Position numbers and translations under genes: made by a program | In this document: one piece after another, positions 5,077 through 29,588 of the stretch | Layout of the letters: each line of letters begins with the position of its first letter | Position numbering within the stretch: the stretch's first letter is position 1 | Notes under the pieces: model-generated | Databases searched by the model: none | Told to the model about the DNA's origin: nothing | The model's input: the letters and a program-made list of their open reading frames with translations, nothing else | DNA from: a virus | Virus record (IMG/VR): IMGVR_UViG_3300044707_000563 | Location: 1 to 34,499 of that record | Length of the DNA stretch: 34,499 bases | Strand: one strand, 5' to 3'

Positions 5077-5649
5077 TCATTTGTGTAGTATTGAGATGCC
5101 TCGCCCTTCGGTTGTGTTAAGCGTGACATTGTTATAATTAAAATGAGCTGCGTATTCTACAAGCTTTCTCGGTCCATCTAAATGGATAGTGTCATGGTAA
5201 ACAATCACTCCGCCTCTTGCCACCAACTTCTCAACAAGTTTAAACTCAGGAAGCACATGCTCCAAGCTGTGATCGCCGTCCACAAAGATAAGGTCAAAAT
5301 GATTCTTAGGCAAGTTATTCAACTCCTCAAGTGAGTTGCCCAGGATGAAGTCAATCGACTTGCCACCCTCTGCCATGTATAGCTTTGTTGCAGGCGTGCG
5401 ATAATCATTGATGTCGATACCGACATACTGCCCACCCTTTGGCAATGCCTTGATAAGATGCTGCGTTGTCTCACCTTCAAACACTCCAATCTCAAGCACC
5501 GTCATGTACTTGCTCATCTTGATGATGCTTGCCATGAATATGCCGCACTCATCTTCTGAGTTCCAATCATGGCGAGCAACCTCTTTGAATGTCTCTGTGG
5601 TCACAATCTCTTTTCTTGGTCTGCCTCTCTTTGGCTTATCGTTTACCAT
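5077..5649 (-). CDS. Class I SAM-dependent methyltransferase
   Basis: This 190-residue protein has clear Rossmann-fold methyltransferase motifs: motif I EIGVFEGET (residues 53-61) for S-adenosylmethionine, an acidic residue after strand 2 in YVGIDIND (75-82), and FDLIFVDGDHS (118-128). The last resembles the Methyltransf_24 family, whose members often methylate small molecules or sugars. The N-terminus contains KPKRGRPRK, an AT-hook-like basic patch. The gene overlaps the preceding glycosyltransferase gene by 14 nt, so the two are probably translated together and may act on the same substrate. It sits between tail and portal genes, away from the replication genes, which argues against a simple DNA methylase. 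No typical DNA methylase catalytic motif (DPPY or PCQ) is seen. The substrate is unknown. Confidence 0.8.
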   Translation of the reverse strand: MVNDKPKRGRPRKEIVTTETFKEVARHDWNSEDECGIFMASIIKMSKYMTVLEIGVFEGETTQHLIKALPKGGQYVGIDINDYRTPATKLYMAEGGKSIDFILGNSLEELNNLPKNHFDLIFVDGDHSLEHVLPEFKLVEKLVARGGVIVYHDTIHLDGPRKLVEYAAHFNYNNVTLNTTEGRGISILHK

Positions 5650-23668: not shown

Positions 23669-23884
23669 TTACCCTTCAATTTGTCTTTTATCCAATGGAA
23701 TAAATCCACTACCGTTGCCATGTACTACCTTGATGAAGTCAACCTCAACCTTTGCTGAGTTGACAATCACCTGGGCAATGTCTGCGATTGCTTTTGCTTT
23801 GTCAAGCTCCATGTCGTTTTCTTTTAACATCTCGATGATTTCGAATAGGTGATCTCTTAGGTCTTCGATTTTATTGCGTGCCAT
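23669..23884 (-). CDS. Small conserved-looking helical protein
   Basis: This 71-residue protein begins MARNKIEDLRDHLFEIIEML and contains KAKAIADIAQVIVNSAKVEV. Closely similar small proteins occur in many phages next to HNH or recombination genes, but I know of no established function. It is almost wholly helical up to residue 52 and ends with a Gly-rich flexible tail. Its start lies within the HNH gene's 3' end (28-nt overlap). Confidence 0.65.
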   Translation of the reverse strand: MARNKIEDLRDHLFEIIEMLKENDMELDKAKAIADIAQVIVNSAKVEVDFIKVVHGNGSGFIPLDKRQIEG

Positions 23885-24462
23885 AATTTGTTCAGAGTTT
23901 TAATTGTTTCGCGAATTGGTTGAGGATATTTGGTGATAGTGTTGCGCTGCATGTTCTCCACTTTTGTAATTGCTTCCAAGTTCTCTATATCGAAATTCGA
24001 TATATTTTTATCTCGGAATGTCACTATCATGTGCGGCTCAAGCTTGCCGTGGTGCTGCTCGTAGATGTGCCGATGTTTAAGCACCCACTTTGCATGCTCT
24101 GCAATCTTGATGTAGGTGTATCCATCTTCATCGATGCGCTCGGATCCGACTGCTCGGTGATTAGGTGGCACAGTGCCCTTCTTGAATCTTGTTTCCTTGC
24201 CTCCGATGTCAAGGCCTTTCATGCCTTTGTTCCAAGGTGTGTTGCCTTTTTTGAACTGCGACTCCTCTCTTGTTTTTCGGAGTCTGCCGCTTGCTTCTGT
24301 TGCCAGGTACTCTTCTGTTTTATGCAGCTGAAGTGCGAAGGCTTTGGCATAGCACTGGGAGATTGATTTCCCAGTGATGAATGCCACCTCTTTTGTCGAC
24401 CGATGCGGATAGTATTCAATCAGCAACTCGGTCTCTTCGAGTGTCCAGTTACAGCGAGTCAT
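23857..24462 (-). CDS. HNH homing-type endonuclease with N-terminal HTH
   Basis: The start is placed at MTRCNWTLEETELL (ATG at 24462, 14-nt overlap with the upstream gene, preceded by AAGGAGG), giving 201 residues. Residues 5-45 form a Myb/SANT-like helix-turn-helix. Two FKKG motifs (FKKGNTPWNKG and FKKGTVPPNHRAVG) follow, typical of DNA-grasping modules in phage HNH enzymes. The HNH core runs from WVLKHRHIYEQHHGKL through FRDKNISNFDIENLEAI. Such free-standing enzymes are often selfish homing nucleases but can also work in replication or packaging. No intron was seen near it. Family confident, role uncertain. Confidence 0.85.
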   Translation of the reverse strand: MTRCNWTLEETELLIEYYPHRSTKEVAFITGKSISQCYAKAFALQLHKTEEYLATEASGRLRKTREESQFKKGNTPWNKGMKGLDIGGKETRFKKGTVPPNHRAVGSERIDEDGYTYIKIAEHAKWVLKHRHIYEQHHGKLEPHMIVTFRDKNISNFDIENLEAITKVENMQRNTITKYPQPIRETIKTLNKLWHAIKSKT

Positions 24463-24685
24463 AATACTCGCGGCCTCCTTCGTCTCCGCCTTGTGATGTT
24501 GGCTTTGGCAAGCGTTTGAACATGTCCTGTTGGCCGTCATGGTAACCGTTGGAGTACGCTTGAATGATTGCTTCTTTTACCTTTGCTTCCATTGTGTCGT
24601 TTTCGCATTCGCGTGGATCAATGATGGTGTCAAGGTAGCGATTGAATTGCGTGAATTCGTAGTGGATGTTGTCGAATGGGCTCAT
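24449..24685 (-). CDS. Hypothetical 78-residue protein
   Basis: This protein starts MSPFDNIHYEFTQFNRYLD and contains a helical region EAIIQAYSNGYHDGQQDMF (about residues 38-56) seen in many small Bacteroidota phage proteins. It overlaps the upstream gene by 4 nt and the HNH gene by 14 nt. The family and function are unknown; its place in the recombination block suggests an accessory role only by association. Confidence 0.6.
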   Translation of the reverse strand: MSPFDNIHYEFTQFNRYLDTIIDPRECENDTMEAKVKEAIIQAYSNGYHDGQQDMFKRLPKPTSQGGDEGGREYYDSL

Positions 24686-26476: not shown

Positions 26477-27127
26477 CTACTTTTTTCCTACAGATGTGAT
26501 GGCCACTCCCATAATGATTCCAACTCCCAACTTGAAGGCAGTTGTTTGATGCCACTTCTTGTCTTCTTTGATGTAGATATTATCCATTCCGGTGATTGCG
26601 ACATTCGGATTGTCGACTCTCATGCGCACCACTTGATCAGACTTGCGGAAGAGACGATTAAAAAAGCCAGTGCGCATGGTATCACCAACAGCATAGGTGA
26701 ACTTGGCAGGAATAACGAGTGAATCAATCTGCAACCACCCGAGGCGGTTTATCATGCCGCCGATTGTGTACCACTCTGTTGTCTTAAGGAATGGCTTAGG
26801 AAGTTGGATGTATGGCTTCTTATCAATCATCACCGTATCACCTAACTTGATCTCAGTTTTTATTACTGTCTTGGTCTCGATGCGCACAACCTCTGTTGCG
26901 TTCTTGACTTTGACTTCGAGCTCTGCAATCTGCTGCGCTTGTTTGGCTGCATCAGAGTTCTTCTGTGCGATTATCTTCTTCTGCGAAGCTATAACTATGC
27001 TGTCCTCATAAATCGTATGTTTAAGACGATAATCAGATTGGACATTGTCAGAGCATGACTTAATCAGCAAGAAGACCAGTAAAATAACTACGCCCAAAAT
27101 AAAAGTTTCAATACGTACAGATGCCAT
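26477..27127 (-). CDS. Membrane-anchored coiled-coil protein, unimolecular spanin candidate
   Basis: This 216-residue protein has an N-terminal hydrophobic segment (residues 8-22) ending IKSC with Cys25, a possible though non-ideal lipobox. A helical stretch (about 35-85) is followed by a beta-containing middle and a second hydrophobic segment near the end (about 199-213, LGVGIIMGVAITSV) with a basic tail. An N-terminal lipoprotein signal plus a C-terminal membrane helix is the layout of unimolecular spanins, which fuse inner and outer membranes at lysis. It ends the lysis cassette. Alternatively it is an inner-membrane protein with two anchors. The Lys at position -2 of the lipobox argues for caution. 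Confidence 0.5.
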   Translation of the reverse strand: MASVRIETFILGVVILLVFLLIKSCSDNVQSDYRLKHTIYEDSIVIASQKKIIAQKNSDAAKQAQQIAELEVKVKNATEVVRIETKTVIKTEIKLGDTVMIDKKPYIQLPKPFLKTTEWYTIGGMINRLGWLQIDSLVIPAKFTYAVGDTMRTGFFNRLFRKSDQVVRMRVDNPNVAITGMDNIYIKEDKKWHQTTAFKLGVGIIMGVAITSVGKK

Positions 27128-27290
27128 GTTGTATGAGTTTTATAAGTTCCTTTGATGCTTCCCAAAATACTCTTTTATCCTTGAGCTCTGCTTGCAGTAT
27201 TTGCAATGCCACGCATACCGGCATGCCTCTTTCAATCACATACCAAGCGGCCACCTTGACCAGTCTCTCATCCGCTTGCTGATCCGTCAT
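27108..27290 (-). CDS. Hypothetical 60-residue protein
   Basis: This small helical protein starts MTDQQADERLVKVAAWYVI and ends LIQHGICTY. It overlaps the PAS-kinase-fragment gene by 4 nt (ATGA) and the next gene by 20 nt, so it is tightly coupled to both. No membrane segment or family is recognised. It could partner the upstream PAS protein, but only gene order suggests this. Confidence 0.55.
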   Translation of the reverse strand: MTDQQADERLVKVAAWYVIERGMPVCVALQILQAELKDKRVFWEASKELIKLIQHGICTY

Positions 27291-27853
27291 AACTCGCGTG
27301 CTGCTTTCTTGATGAGTATCTTGATTGCATCATCAAGCTTGTTGACTGATGTATGAATCATTGTGAGCACATCCTTCCTGTCGACATCACTTGCACCTTG
27401 GTGCTGCATAAGTATCTGTACAAGTCCAGAGATGTTTGTCAATGGTTGGCGCAGCTCGTGGCTAAGCATAAAGCGGAACTCCTCAAGGAGCACTCTTTGC
27501 CGCTCGTAATCATGCGAGCTTATGCTTGTTACATCGACCATCTGGATGCCGACAAAGTGCAAGGTGTCAGCAATCGCGAAGCAGTTCCAAACATTATATC
27601 TGTCGCTTGTATTTTTCTGCCTGGTCCGAGCATAAACTCTTGATGGCTCAGGCGAATGCTTGCGAGCTGTTGCAATTGCCTTGATGAAATCATCTTTATC
27701 ACCTTCAATGCTTATGATGTCGGTGATTTTTGTGGGCTTGATGTGGCTCACATAGTTCTTAAAGAGCTCATTGTTGGACACAATCTTTCCATCTTGATCA
27801 GTGACCACATAAAACAAATCAATCGAATGTTCTAAGATGAATAGCGAAGACAT
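27287..27853 (-). CDS. PAS domain plus HisKA (DHp) histidine-kinase fragment lacking the ATPase domain
   Basis: This 188-residue soluble protein has a PAS-like sensor (about residues 8-110: DLFYVVTDQDGKIVSNNELF at the start, ending FVGIQMVDVTSIS) and then a histidine-kinase dimerisation domain. The H-box SHELRQPLTNISGL (131-144) carries the phosphoacceptor His132, followed by Glu133 and the conserved Pro137. A second helix (VLTMIHTSVNKLDDAIKIL) completes the hairpin, after which the gene stops. The HATPase_c domain with its N, G1 and G2 boxes is absent, and the next ORF does not supply it. It cannot phosphorylate itself alone but could be phosphorylated by, or form heterodimers with, a host kinase. 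It lies in the lysis cassette and has no membrane segment. Confidence 0.85.
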   Translation of the reverse strand: MSSLFILEHSIDLFYVVTDQDGKIVSNNELFKNYVSHIKPTKITDIISIEGDKDDFIKAIATARKHSPEPSRVYARTRQKNTSDRYNVWNCFAIADTLHFVGIQMVDVTSISSHDYERQRVLLEEFRFMLSHELRQPLTNISGLVQILMQHQGASDVDRKDVLTMIHTSVNKLDDAIKILIKKAAREL

Positions 27854-28320
27854 TGCTTGAGTTCGCTGTAAAGATTAGACCAAGCAGTCATCGAGCTCCA
27901 TGCCCATTGTGCTGTGAGGTAAATGGTAAAAGTCAAGAGCAAGCCCATCACAGGCGCATCCATTGTCGGTTCATATTCTCGGAACTCAGTTCGAGGCTTG
28001 ATGATGAATTTTACCTCGGGCTTTGGTGCAAGAAGGAATGCAGAAGTACTCGGCTTGATGGTGTCGCTTGCGTAGATTTGTTGCATCGTTGTTGGCTCTG
28101 GTATTGGCTTATCAGATGGCAGCTCGTAAGTTTGCCCCCACTGATTAGTGCAATAGTGCTTGCCAAAGATAGTGAATTTCTGCATCGATTGATACACCAC
28201 TTGCGGCTCTAGATGAATAACATGATGATGTGTATGCAGCTTGCAGCCAATACCAATCACGCAAGCCGCATCGAGGCTTGTTGTTATTTGTACTGTGTCT
28301 ATGCCATCATCCATTGTCAC
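27832..28320 (-). CDS. Hypothetical single-pass membrane protein in the lysis cassette
   Basis: This 162-residue protein has a His/Cys-rich region (CKLHTHHHVIH, residues 26-36) and a Pro/Lys-rich middle (about 68-120). A single hydrophobic segment follows (about 122-140, APVMGLLLTFTIYLTAQWA) before a short C-terminal tail. It overlaps the holin candidate by 14 nt and the PAS protein gene by 22 nt. A role in lysis, such as antiholin or membrane partner, is suggested only by position. The His cluster could bind metal. No family recognised. Confidence 0.55.
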   Translation of the reverse strand: MTMDDGIDTVQITTSLDAACVIGIGCKLHTHHHVIHLEPQVVYQSMQKFTIFGKHYCTNQWGQTYELPSDKPIPEPTTMQQIYASDTIKPSTSAFLLAPKPEVKFIIKPRTEFREYEPTMDAPVMGLLLTFTIYLTAQWAWSSMTAWSNLYSELKQCLRYSS

Positions 28321-28507
28321 TTGATTTTGGTATGTATCCTGCTGCTACCATTGCGGCAACAATTGCTGCGAGTGTCTCTGTGTTTATCTGCTTGAATATT
28401 AATGCGAAGACGGAGCCAAGTATCACCAAGCTGCCAATGGTTGGCCTCCAATACTTGAGAATGATGTCAAGTACTTGCCTTGGTTTGCTAACTGGTTTCC
28501 TTGCCAT
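28307..28507 (-). CDS. Holin candidate
   Basis: This 66-residue protein has a basic N-terminus (MARKPVSKPRQ) and two hydrophobic segments (about residues 22-39, around IGSLVILGSVFALIF, and 45-60, around AAIVAAMVAAGY), the layout of small two-helix holins. It lies one small gene after the GH24 endolysin. Holins open the inner membrane at a set time and let the endolysin reach the wall. Holins are assigned by size, topology and neighbourhood, so this is likely but not certain. Confidence 0.65.
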   Translation of the reverse strand: MARKPVSKPRQVLDIILKYWRPTIGSLVILGSVFALIFKQINTETLAAIVAAMVAAGYIPKSSDNG

Positions 28508-28643: not shown

Positions 28644-29098
28644 TCAACGACGGCAGTGAAATATAGTTGCGCCTCTTTCTTGCGCCTTCTTACAAGCCCT
28701 GTCACAACCTCGCCGCCTGCTCTGTTCCACTTAAGAAACTCGGCTGCAATTTTCGGATCGTTTGGATTGGCTTTTACAAATCTTAGCAGCTGCGACTTGG
28801 CAAGGTTTCCTGCACCCAGGTTATAGGTAAAACTTACAAGCGCATCGAATTGGTTTTGATTAACCTTAGTGCCGTTAAGCAGTCCAGTCACCGCACCCTC
28901 AAACTCCTTAAGATGATCAACAAGCATCTGATTGGCTTGCTCTCTTGTAATGGTTTGCCCAAGCTTAACCTTGCTTCCATCATGGTAGTACGTTGCGCCG
29001 TATCCAATTGTTGGCACTCCTGCGCTGCATAGGTAGGATGTAAGACGCAAGCCTTCAAACTCCTGTATGAGTCGGATGCCGTTAATAGAGGATTTCAT
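28640..29098 (-). CDS. GH24 endolysin (phage lysozyme)
   Basis: This 152-residue muramidase has the family signature FEGLRLTSYLCSAGVPTIGYG (given as its parts FEG, residues 14-16, and TIGYG, 30-34). The catalytic set is Glu15, Cys24 and Thr30, the E-8-C-5-T variant in which cysteine stands at the position of Asp20 in T4 lysozyme. Length is normal for the single-domain form. It has no signal peptide, so it depends on the holin to reach peptidoglycan. It starts 17 nt inside the preceding tail gene and leads the lysis cassette. Confidence 0.95.
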   Translation of the reverse strand: MKSSINGIRLIQEFEGLRLTSYLCSAGVPTIGYGATYYHDGSKVKLGQTITREQANQMLVDHLKEFEGAVTGLLNGTKVNQNQFDALVSFTYNLGAGNLAKSQLLRFVKANPNDPKIAAEFLKWNRAGGEVVTGLVRRRKKEAQLYFTAVVE

Positions 29099-29588
29099 AT
29101 TGGAATTGGATTGTGCAGTATGGCATATAAGAAGCAGCAGTTGCAGTTTCTAATTCAACTTTGCAAGTGTTGTTGGTTACTTCTGCGCTAATTGTTAAGC
29201 CAACAATCTCTGCCAATGTTCCGCCAAAAGACCATTGCATTAATCCGAAACATTGCTTTGTACTTGTAAAGTTTGATGCAGCAGGAAGCTCAATTTCAAA
29301 TGCTCCAGTAACTTCTCCAGTATCAAGTGTTATTTCTAACTGAGCAGAAACGGTTGCCACGTTTCCAACTCTGATGAAGGTTGCATAGTTAACTGCTACA
29401 ACAATGCCATTCACCTCTCCGCTGATTGTTGGAGTGTAGCTGCCACTGCTAAACATATTACCAACCTCAATCTGCGAAGATGTTCCCTCAGGTGATTGAG
29501 TGGTGTTGCTTACATCCACAATGTAAAGCAAGTCATTGCTTGCCGCTGATGTGATTGTTGCTAAGTCTGTTATTTTTACTCCTGCCAT
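29082..29588 (-). CDS. Tail fibre-associated protein
   Basis: This 168-residue protein begins MAGVKITDLATITSAASND and continues LLYIVDVSNTTQ, an opening shared by many Bacteroidota phage tail fibre proteins. The rest is beta-rich (ATVSAQLEITLD, AEVTNNTCKVEL). It follows the large fibre gene and probably forms a fibre tip or receptor-binding trimer. The fibre assignment is supported by the N-terminal pattern and position; the receptor is unknown. Confidence 0.65.
   Translation of the reverse strand: MAGVKITDLATITSAASNDLLYIVDVSNTTQSPEGTSSQIEVGNMFSSGSYTPTISGEVNGIVVAVNYATFIRVGNVATVSAQLEITLDTGEVTGAFEIELPAASNFTSTKQCFGLMQWSFGGTLAEIVGLTISAEVTNNTCKVELETATAASYMPYCTIQFQYEILY

Follow-up and report, generated by a model that had tools for sequence, protein, structure and literature searches.

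The lysis region of the phage

The DNA analysed here is a viral stretch of 34,499 nucleotides, which we refer to in its full length as the window, and it carries a set of lysis genes on the minus strand together with an open reading frame of 188 codons starting with ATG (Table 1). The product of this frame, the PAS-DHp protein, combines a PAS-like sensor part with a DHp hairpin. The genes for a tail fibre, the lysozyme, the holin-like protein, the 162-aa protein, the PAS-DHp protein, the 60-aa protein and the 216-aa protein follow each other in constant order in 20 phage loci, each compared as far as its contig extends. Homologues of the 162-aa and 60-aa genes were found at the same positions in all 20 loci, and the 216-aa gene is a conserved neighbour. 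The place of the PAS-DHp gene, which is fixed between the lysozyme and holin-like genes on one side and the gene for the DUF6549-like membrane protein on the other, is the site inside the lysis genes that had been reported in a first-pass annotation of the DNA. The tight overlaps with the upstream membrane protein gene and with the gene for the 60-residue protein, also described there, proved to be general. Among 104 distinct gene sequences, the overlap of 22 nt between the 162-aa and PAS-DHp genes recurs in 103, and the 4-nt ATGA overlap between the PAS-DHp and 60-aa genes in every one. None of the 245 loci that cover the lysis region, a number which includes repeats, was without the PAS-DHp gene, and for 100 of these loci another gene had served as the anchor for retrieval. 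The position among the lysis genes suggests a late role for the PAS-DHp protein and, by gene position only, a possible link to the timing of lysis. The interval between the tail fibre and lysozyme genes contains a 168-aa gene (window positions 29082-29588, minus strand), which is far more variable than its neighbours (37-67% identity).

Table 1. Genes and protein features of the lysis region in the window.
Feature	Position	Strand	Basis
216-aa protein, N-terminal hydrophobic stretch, spanin-like by build only	26477..27127	-	DUF6549, E 4e-4, below cut-off
60-aa protein, downstream of PAS-DHp	27108..27290	-	ORF; ATGA overlap
PAS-DHp protein gene, 188 aa, no ATPase (CA) domain	27287..27853	-	ORF, HisKA match, viral relatives, dN/dS
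Signal helix and DHp hairpin, residues 113-187	27293..27517	-	AlphaFold2 helices, HisKA
His132 codon (predicted phospho-acceptor)	27458..27460	-	Invariant His in phage and cellular alignments
PAS-like sensor core, residues 13-109, with D107-V108-T109 (DIT-type) at its end	27527..27817	-	AlphaFold2 topology, Foldseek LOV/PAS matches
162-aa protein, single C-terminal hydrophobic stretch, upstream of PAS-DHp	27832..28320	-	ORF; no Pfam/PHROG match
Small membrane protein, 66 aa, holin-like as judged from position and hydrophobicity only	28307..28507	-	No family match above cut-off
Endolysin (phage lysozyme)	28640..29098	-	Pfam Phage_lysozyme, 8e-43; phrog_7 endolysin, 5e-57

The host of the phage is likely a member of the Bacteroidota, because its primase is nearest to those of Cellulophaga, Nonlabens and Flavobacterium phages and contains a BT4734-like domain. 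Elsewhere in the window, a 227-aa protein (23857-24540, minus strand) resembles an HNH/NUMOD-type endonuclease by eye and has a homologue in many, not all, of the related loci, and a 190-aa DNA methyltransferase-like protein (5077-5649, minus strand; phrog_2675, E 3e-9) is encoded near the portal gene.

Domain composition and predicted fold

The C-terminal half of the PAS-DHp protein was matched by the Pfam family HisKA (PF00512) over residues 129-177 with an E value of 1.7e-8 and a score of 34.8 bits, the curated cut-off being 26.9 bits, and the same family was matched in 14 of 14 phage family members. This agrees with the complete-looking phosphoacceptor hairpin of the first-pass annotation, including the H-box residues His132, Glu133 and Pro137. 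No further Pfam family, including the PAS, HPt and Spo0B families, was matched by the protein at E <= 1, and PAS_9 was reached by two of the 14 family members (E 0.007).

Structure prediction by AlphaFold2 with a 45-row alignment gave an improved model with a mean pLDDT of 75. In the predicted PAS topology, β-strands at residues 13-18 and 23-27 are followed by helices at 29-66 and further strands at 71-77, 85-94 and 97-106. Behind the PAS part, the helices 113-150 and 156-187 form one long continuous signal helix and a two-helix hairpin, through which the protein is predicted to dimerise. The top structural matches of the model in Foldseek were LOV-histidine kinases such as YF1 (4gcz, E 2e-6). 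The residues D107 and V108 are invariant in the phage family and the motif D107-V108-T109 is conserved; PAS domains usually end in such a DIT-type motif. Because the Pfam PAS families do not match the window protein, whereas AlphaFold2 and Foldseek give a PAS fold, the previously proposed sensor-like PAS region stands with regard to topology and structural matches but not as a Pfam assignment, and the PAS identity of the N-terminal half is supported more by the structure, itself a prediction, than by the sequence.

The protein terminates exactly at the end of the hairpin (residue 188). Neither the protein nor the rest of the window contains a HATPase_c domain, and none was found in 11 related phage contigs with lengths of 30-37 kb, while the same search yielded matches in 14 of 14 control genomes. 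The stop before any HATPase_c domain, as annotated initially, is therefore real, and we rejected the possibility of a hidden ATPase domain. An orthodox histidine kinase would have HATPase_c within the protein or adjoining it, and the PAS-DHp protein has it in neither place. Receiver domains were also not found in the window and in ten of the related 30-37 kb contigs. Because the phage is devoid of ATPase and receiver domains, the partners of the hairpin must be supplied by the host.

A core gene of an uncultured phage lineage

Relatives of the PAS-DHp protein are encoded in 147 viral stretches and fall into two viral groups, a main group at 78-100% identity and a second one at about 62%. All 90 distinct full-length phage sequences share the same short C-terminus, with lengths of 186-188 aa, and pairwise comparisons against six relatives gave dN/dS values of 0.025-0.093. 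The PAS-DHp gene is a core gene, conserved and under selection, in an uncultured phage lineage. Searches in cultured phages gave no match at E 0.01 and just noise at E 10, those in plasmids nothing beyond kinases and PAS proteins with weak matches, and no close copy was found in a host chromosome or prophage among the genome contigs scanned with the phage family alignment.

One might suspect a decaying kinase gene, an assembly error or a chance open reading frame behind such a short protein, but we consider the probability of this negligible. All of the 90 distinct sequences stop at the same site with the H-box intact, the dN/dS values are low, and the family was assembled independently from many metagenomes. 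Loss of the H-box His or random truncations among homologues, which the first-pass annotation had named as signs of decay or sequencing error, did not occur in these sequences, and its view that the gene is not a product of random decay is borne out.

Proteins of the same build in Bacteroidota

The lack of an ATPase domain is not an oddity of the phage, as many PAS proteins of Bacteroidota have the same build. A 64-residue query that detects them favours proteins with the sequence HVVRAP and found no relative in viral contigs; the claims on the class rest mainly on a search with the phage profile. From this profile search in ten Bacteroidota genomes, 110 hairpin relatives were examined, of which 33 were CA-less and 77 full kinases, a ratio which does not represent a phylum-wide frequency because the genomes were picked for the presence of the class. 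The two kinds are clearly separated by the tail past the hairpin, which comprises -3 to 43 residues in the 33 CA-less proteins and at least 150 residues in the 77 kinases, with nothing between.

The author of the first-pass annotation knew of no described phage system of this form. The protein is, however, not a kinase truncated in a way peculiar to a phage, since in many PAS proteins from Bacteroidota chromosomes the chain likewise stops behind this hairpin, and it is these rather than the full kinases that the phage protein resembles more closely. The CA-less proteins reached a median score of 29.2 bits with the phage profile versus 23.4 bits for the full kinases (Mann-Whitney p 3e-11) and accounted for 16 of the 20 top scores. 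Aligning the profiles of the phage family and the cellular class by hhalign gave a probability of 98.7% and an E value of 2.4e-16 over residues 17-186. In a tree of 136 rows and 78 columns, the cellular CA-less proteins form almost one clade with the phage family inside (SH-aLRT 87 and 89), and in a shorter tree of 68 columns, which does not fix the place of the phage family, the cellular CA-less rows lie on one side of a branch, a joint clade with the phage family not being rejected (AU p 0.49). Judged by these sequence comparisons, the phage family likely belongs to the cellular CA-less class. Given the many proteins of this build in Bacteroidota, the phage has probably taken over a signalling part that already existed there in order to tap host circuits.

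The His, Arg and Pro residues of the H-box are invariant across the phage family and 28 cellular CA-less proteins, so that the phospho-acceptor is retained throughout the class. The position following the His (H+1) is Asn, Asp or Glu in 71 of 73 full kinases and V, K, Q, I, L or A in most cellular CA-less relatives, while it is always Glu in the phage family. The spacing from the DIT motif to the His is 27 in 18 of the 21 motif-bearing cellular CA-less proteins versus 25 in the phage, so the coupling of the PAS part to the hairpin may differ between the phage protein and the cellular class. In most full kinases of the ten Bacteroidota genomes, the PAS exit motif and the His are 34 residues apart, one helical heptad more than the 27 of most CA-less proteins.

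In this unselected set, only five of the 33 CA-less proteins, compared to 40 of the 77 full kinases, contain a receiver domain themselves or have one encoded close by. Receiver linkage was more frequent in selected loci (48 of 80), but because the unselected set gives just 5 of 33, we do not count it for the whole class. A CA-less subfamily that is encoded in operons with receiver domains or fused to them shows that such hairpins can accompany receiver domains. We also observed a conserved Bacteroidota operon coding for a single-domain response regulator, a receiver-PAS-DHp protein without an ATPase domain and often a second single-domain regulator, whose domains were confirmed by Pfam in those loci checked (for example L096, L110, L120, L143 and L150); no description of this operon was found in the literature searched. 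In a PAS-DHp protein of Flectobacillus (L159:1-3648), the hairpin runs directly into a receiver domain, not into an ATPase domain. No published account of a PAS-DHp protein in phages or of the CA-less class in Bacteroidota was found in a search that covered few subscription papers, which makes this a weak negative.

Chemistry of the H-box

The H-box of the PAS-DHp protein reads S131-H132-E133-L134-R135-Q136-P137. His132, Glu133, Arg135, Gln136 and Pro137 are invariant in 92 of 92 full-length rows and throughout the 90 distinct full-length sequences, each of which contains the motif LSHE[LIV]RQP. A comparison of His132 with its surroundings over the 92 rows, as suggested in the first-pass annotation, identified the H-box as the best conserved part (mean top frequency 0.95) and residues 141-165 downstream of it as the least conserved (0.70). 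The stretch just past the H-box is where kinases select their response regulator, although low conservation there could simply be that of the hairpin loop.

The hairpin might serve for dimerisation only, with the protein acting as a lysis-control sensor through the 162-aa and 60-aa operon partners and playing no role in host two-component signalling. Such a function would suit a gene which in all 20 loci keeps its place between the genes for the holin-like and spanin-like proteins, shows zero losses among the 245 spanning loci and conserves both overlaps, but pure dimerisation would not require invariant His, Glu, Arg, Gln and Pro residues in the H-box, which are retained while the rest of the hairpin drifts, and we regard this explanation as rather unlikely.

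HisKA proteins contain the motif H-E/D-x-x-T/N, in which a Glu at H+1 is needed exclusively for the kinase reaction and not for phosphatase activity, whereas the T/N at H+4 is the phosphatase residue (PMC3510030). E133 of the phage protein corresponds to this motif at H+1, but position H+4 is taken by the invariant Q136 instead of Thr or Asn. Another conceivable function is that of a response-regulator phosphatase, whose hairpin would strip the phosphate from a host regulator and carry none itself, as in the case of RetS and GacS. A kinase-inactive hairpin can indeed be a transmitter phosphatase, RetS keeping HExxT (PMC5992135), and the acid-amide pair E133-x-x-Q136 is invariant in the 90 sequences. 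However, we demoted this model to a quite unlikely one because Gln136 stands where HisKA phosphatases need Thr or Asn; the exchange N375Q at H+4 of CrdS abolished the phosphatase activity, and the Glu that the phage protein keeps at H+1 serves the kinase reaction and was dispensable for phosphatase activity (PMC3510030). Because the phage family has kept this Glu, unlike most cellular CA-less relatives, its sequences suggest a hairpin that still depends on being loaded by a kinase.

Proposed mechanism and comparison with known systems

In our preferred reading, which we give a probability of about 0.5, the PAS-DHp protein is a sensor-gated phospho-acceptor that is loaded at His132 by the host and diverts host two-component phosphate during the late phase. 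The protein would be soluble, dimeric through its hairpin and incapable of self-phosphorylation. Its PAS part would sense some signal in the infected cell and set the helix bearing His132, which a host kinase would load in trans through its ATPase domain, either in a mixed dimer or during an encounter. Alternatively, His132 might be loaded by back-transfer from a host response regulator, but trans loading by the host ATPase domain is favoured because Glu133 is present. The phosphate would thus be diverted, drained or rerouted in a host two-component pathway in the late (lysis) phase. We infer the PAS signal, the phosphorylation of His132, the host partner, the timing and the effect on lysis alike. 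A host-loaded phospho-acceptor agrees better with the facts than either a phosphatase or a pure scaffold does, and the decoy or dominant-negative partner already considered in the first-pass annotation is the leading type of mechanism. More tentatively, this late core gene may read or reset the host state for the ending of the infection and represent the viral branch of a large class of phosphate hubs in Bacteroidota. As this lineage seemingly never loses the gene beside its lysis genes, the question of whether phages time lysis by reading the signalling of the host could be tested cleanly on it. The gene further draws attention to ATPase-less PAS-DHp proteins as a class that is common in Bacteroidota and seemingly undescribed, and the short phage protein would lend itself as a minimal model of this class.

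Few phage proteins acting on host two-component systems are known, and no other one consisting of half a histidine kinase with a sensor was found in the literature searched. One of them is PIT4 of the Pseudomonas phage LSL4, an early protein binding to host histidine-kinase domains (PMC10714779), which resembles the PAS-DHp protein in its phage origin and in targeting host histidine kinases, the PAS-DHp target being a putative one. RetS of Pseudomonas, which contains a degenerate ATPase domain and acts on GacS by several routes, likewise has a hairpin without autophosphorylation that is aimed at the pathway of another kinase (PMC5992135). It differs from the phage protein as a chromosomal membrane hybrid kinase with the sequence HExxT, whose ATPase domain is degenerate rather than absent, and the RetS chains match the phage hairpin weakly in sequence (E about 0.5). 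Both examples would be compatible with an inhibitor that acts by binding only, forming mixed dimers which sterically block host kinases without any chemistry at His132, as PIT4 demonstrates binding of phage proteins to host kinase domains (PMC10714779) and GacS autophosphorylation is inhibited by RetS (PMC5992135). Binding alone leaves the strict retention of His132 and Glu133 unexplained, and we consider it very unlikely compared to the host-loaded phospho-acceptor.

YF1 and other PAS/LOV-HisKA-HATPase kinases, the best structural matches, possess their own ATPase domain, whereas the phage protein stops before it. Spo0B and HPt proteins carry a phospho-accepting His, have no autokinase activity and relay phosphate between proteins. 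The phage protein differs from these in being of the HisKA type with its own sensor and in having no HPt sequence match. The cellular CA-less proteins share with it a PAS or other sensor, a HisKA-type hairpin, a stop within a few residues and the invariant His, Arg and Pro; compared to them, the phage protein is minimal with its one PAS part, has Glu at H+1 and Gln at H+4, is about 20% identical and is encoded in a lysis region.
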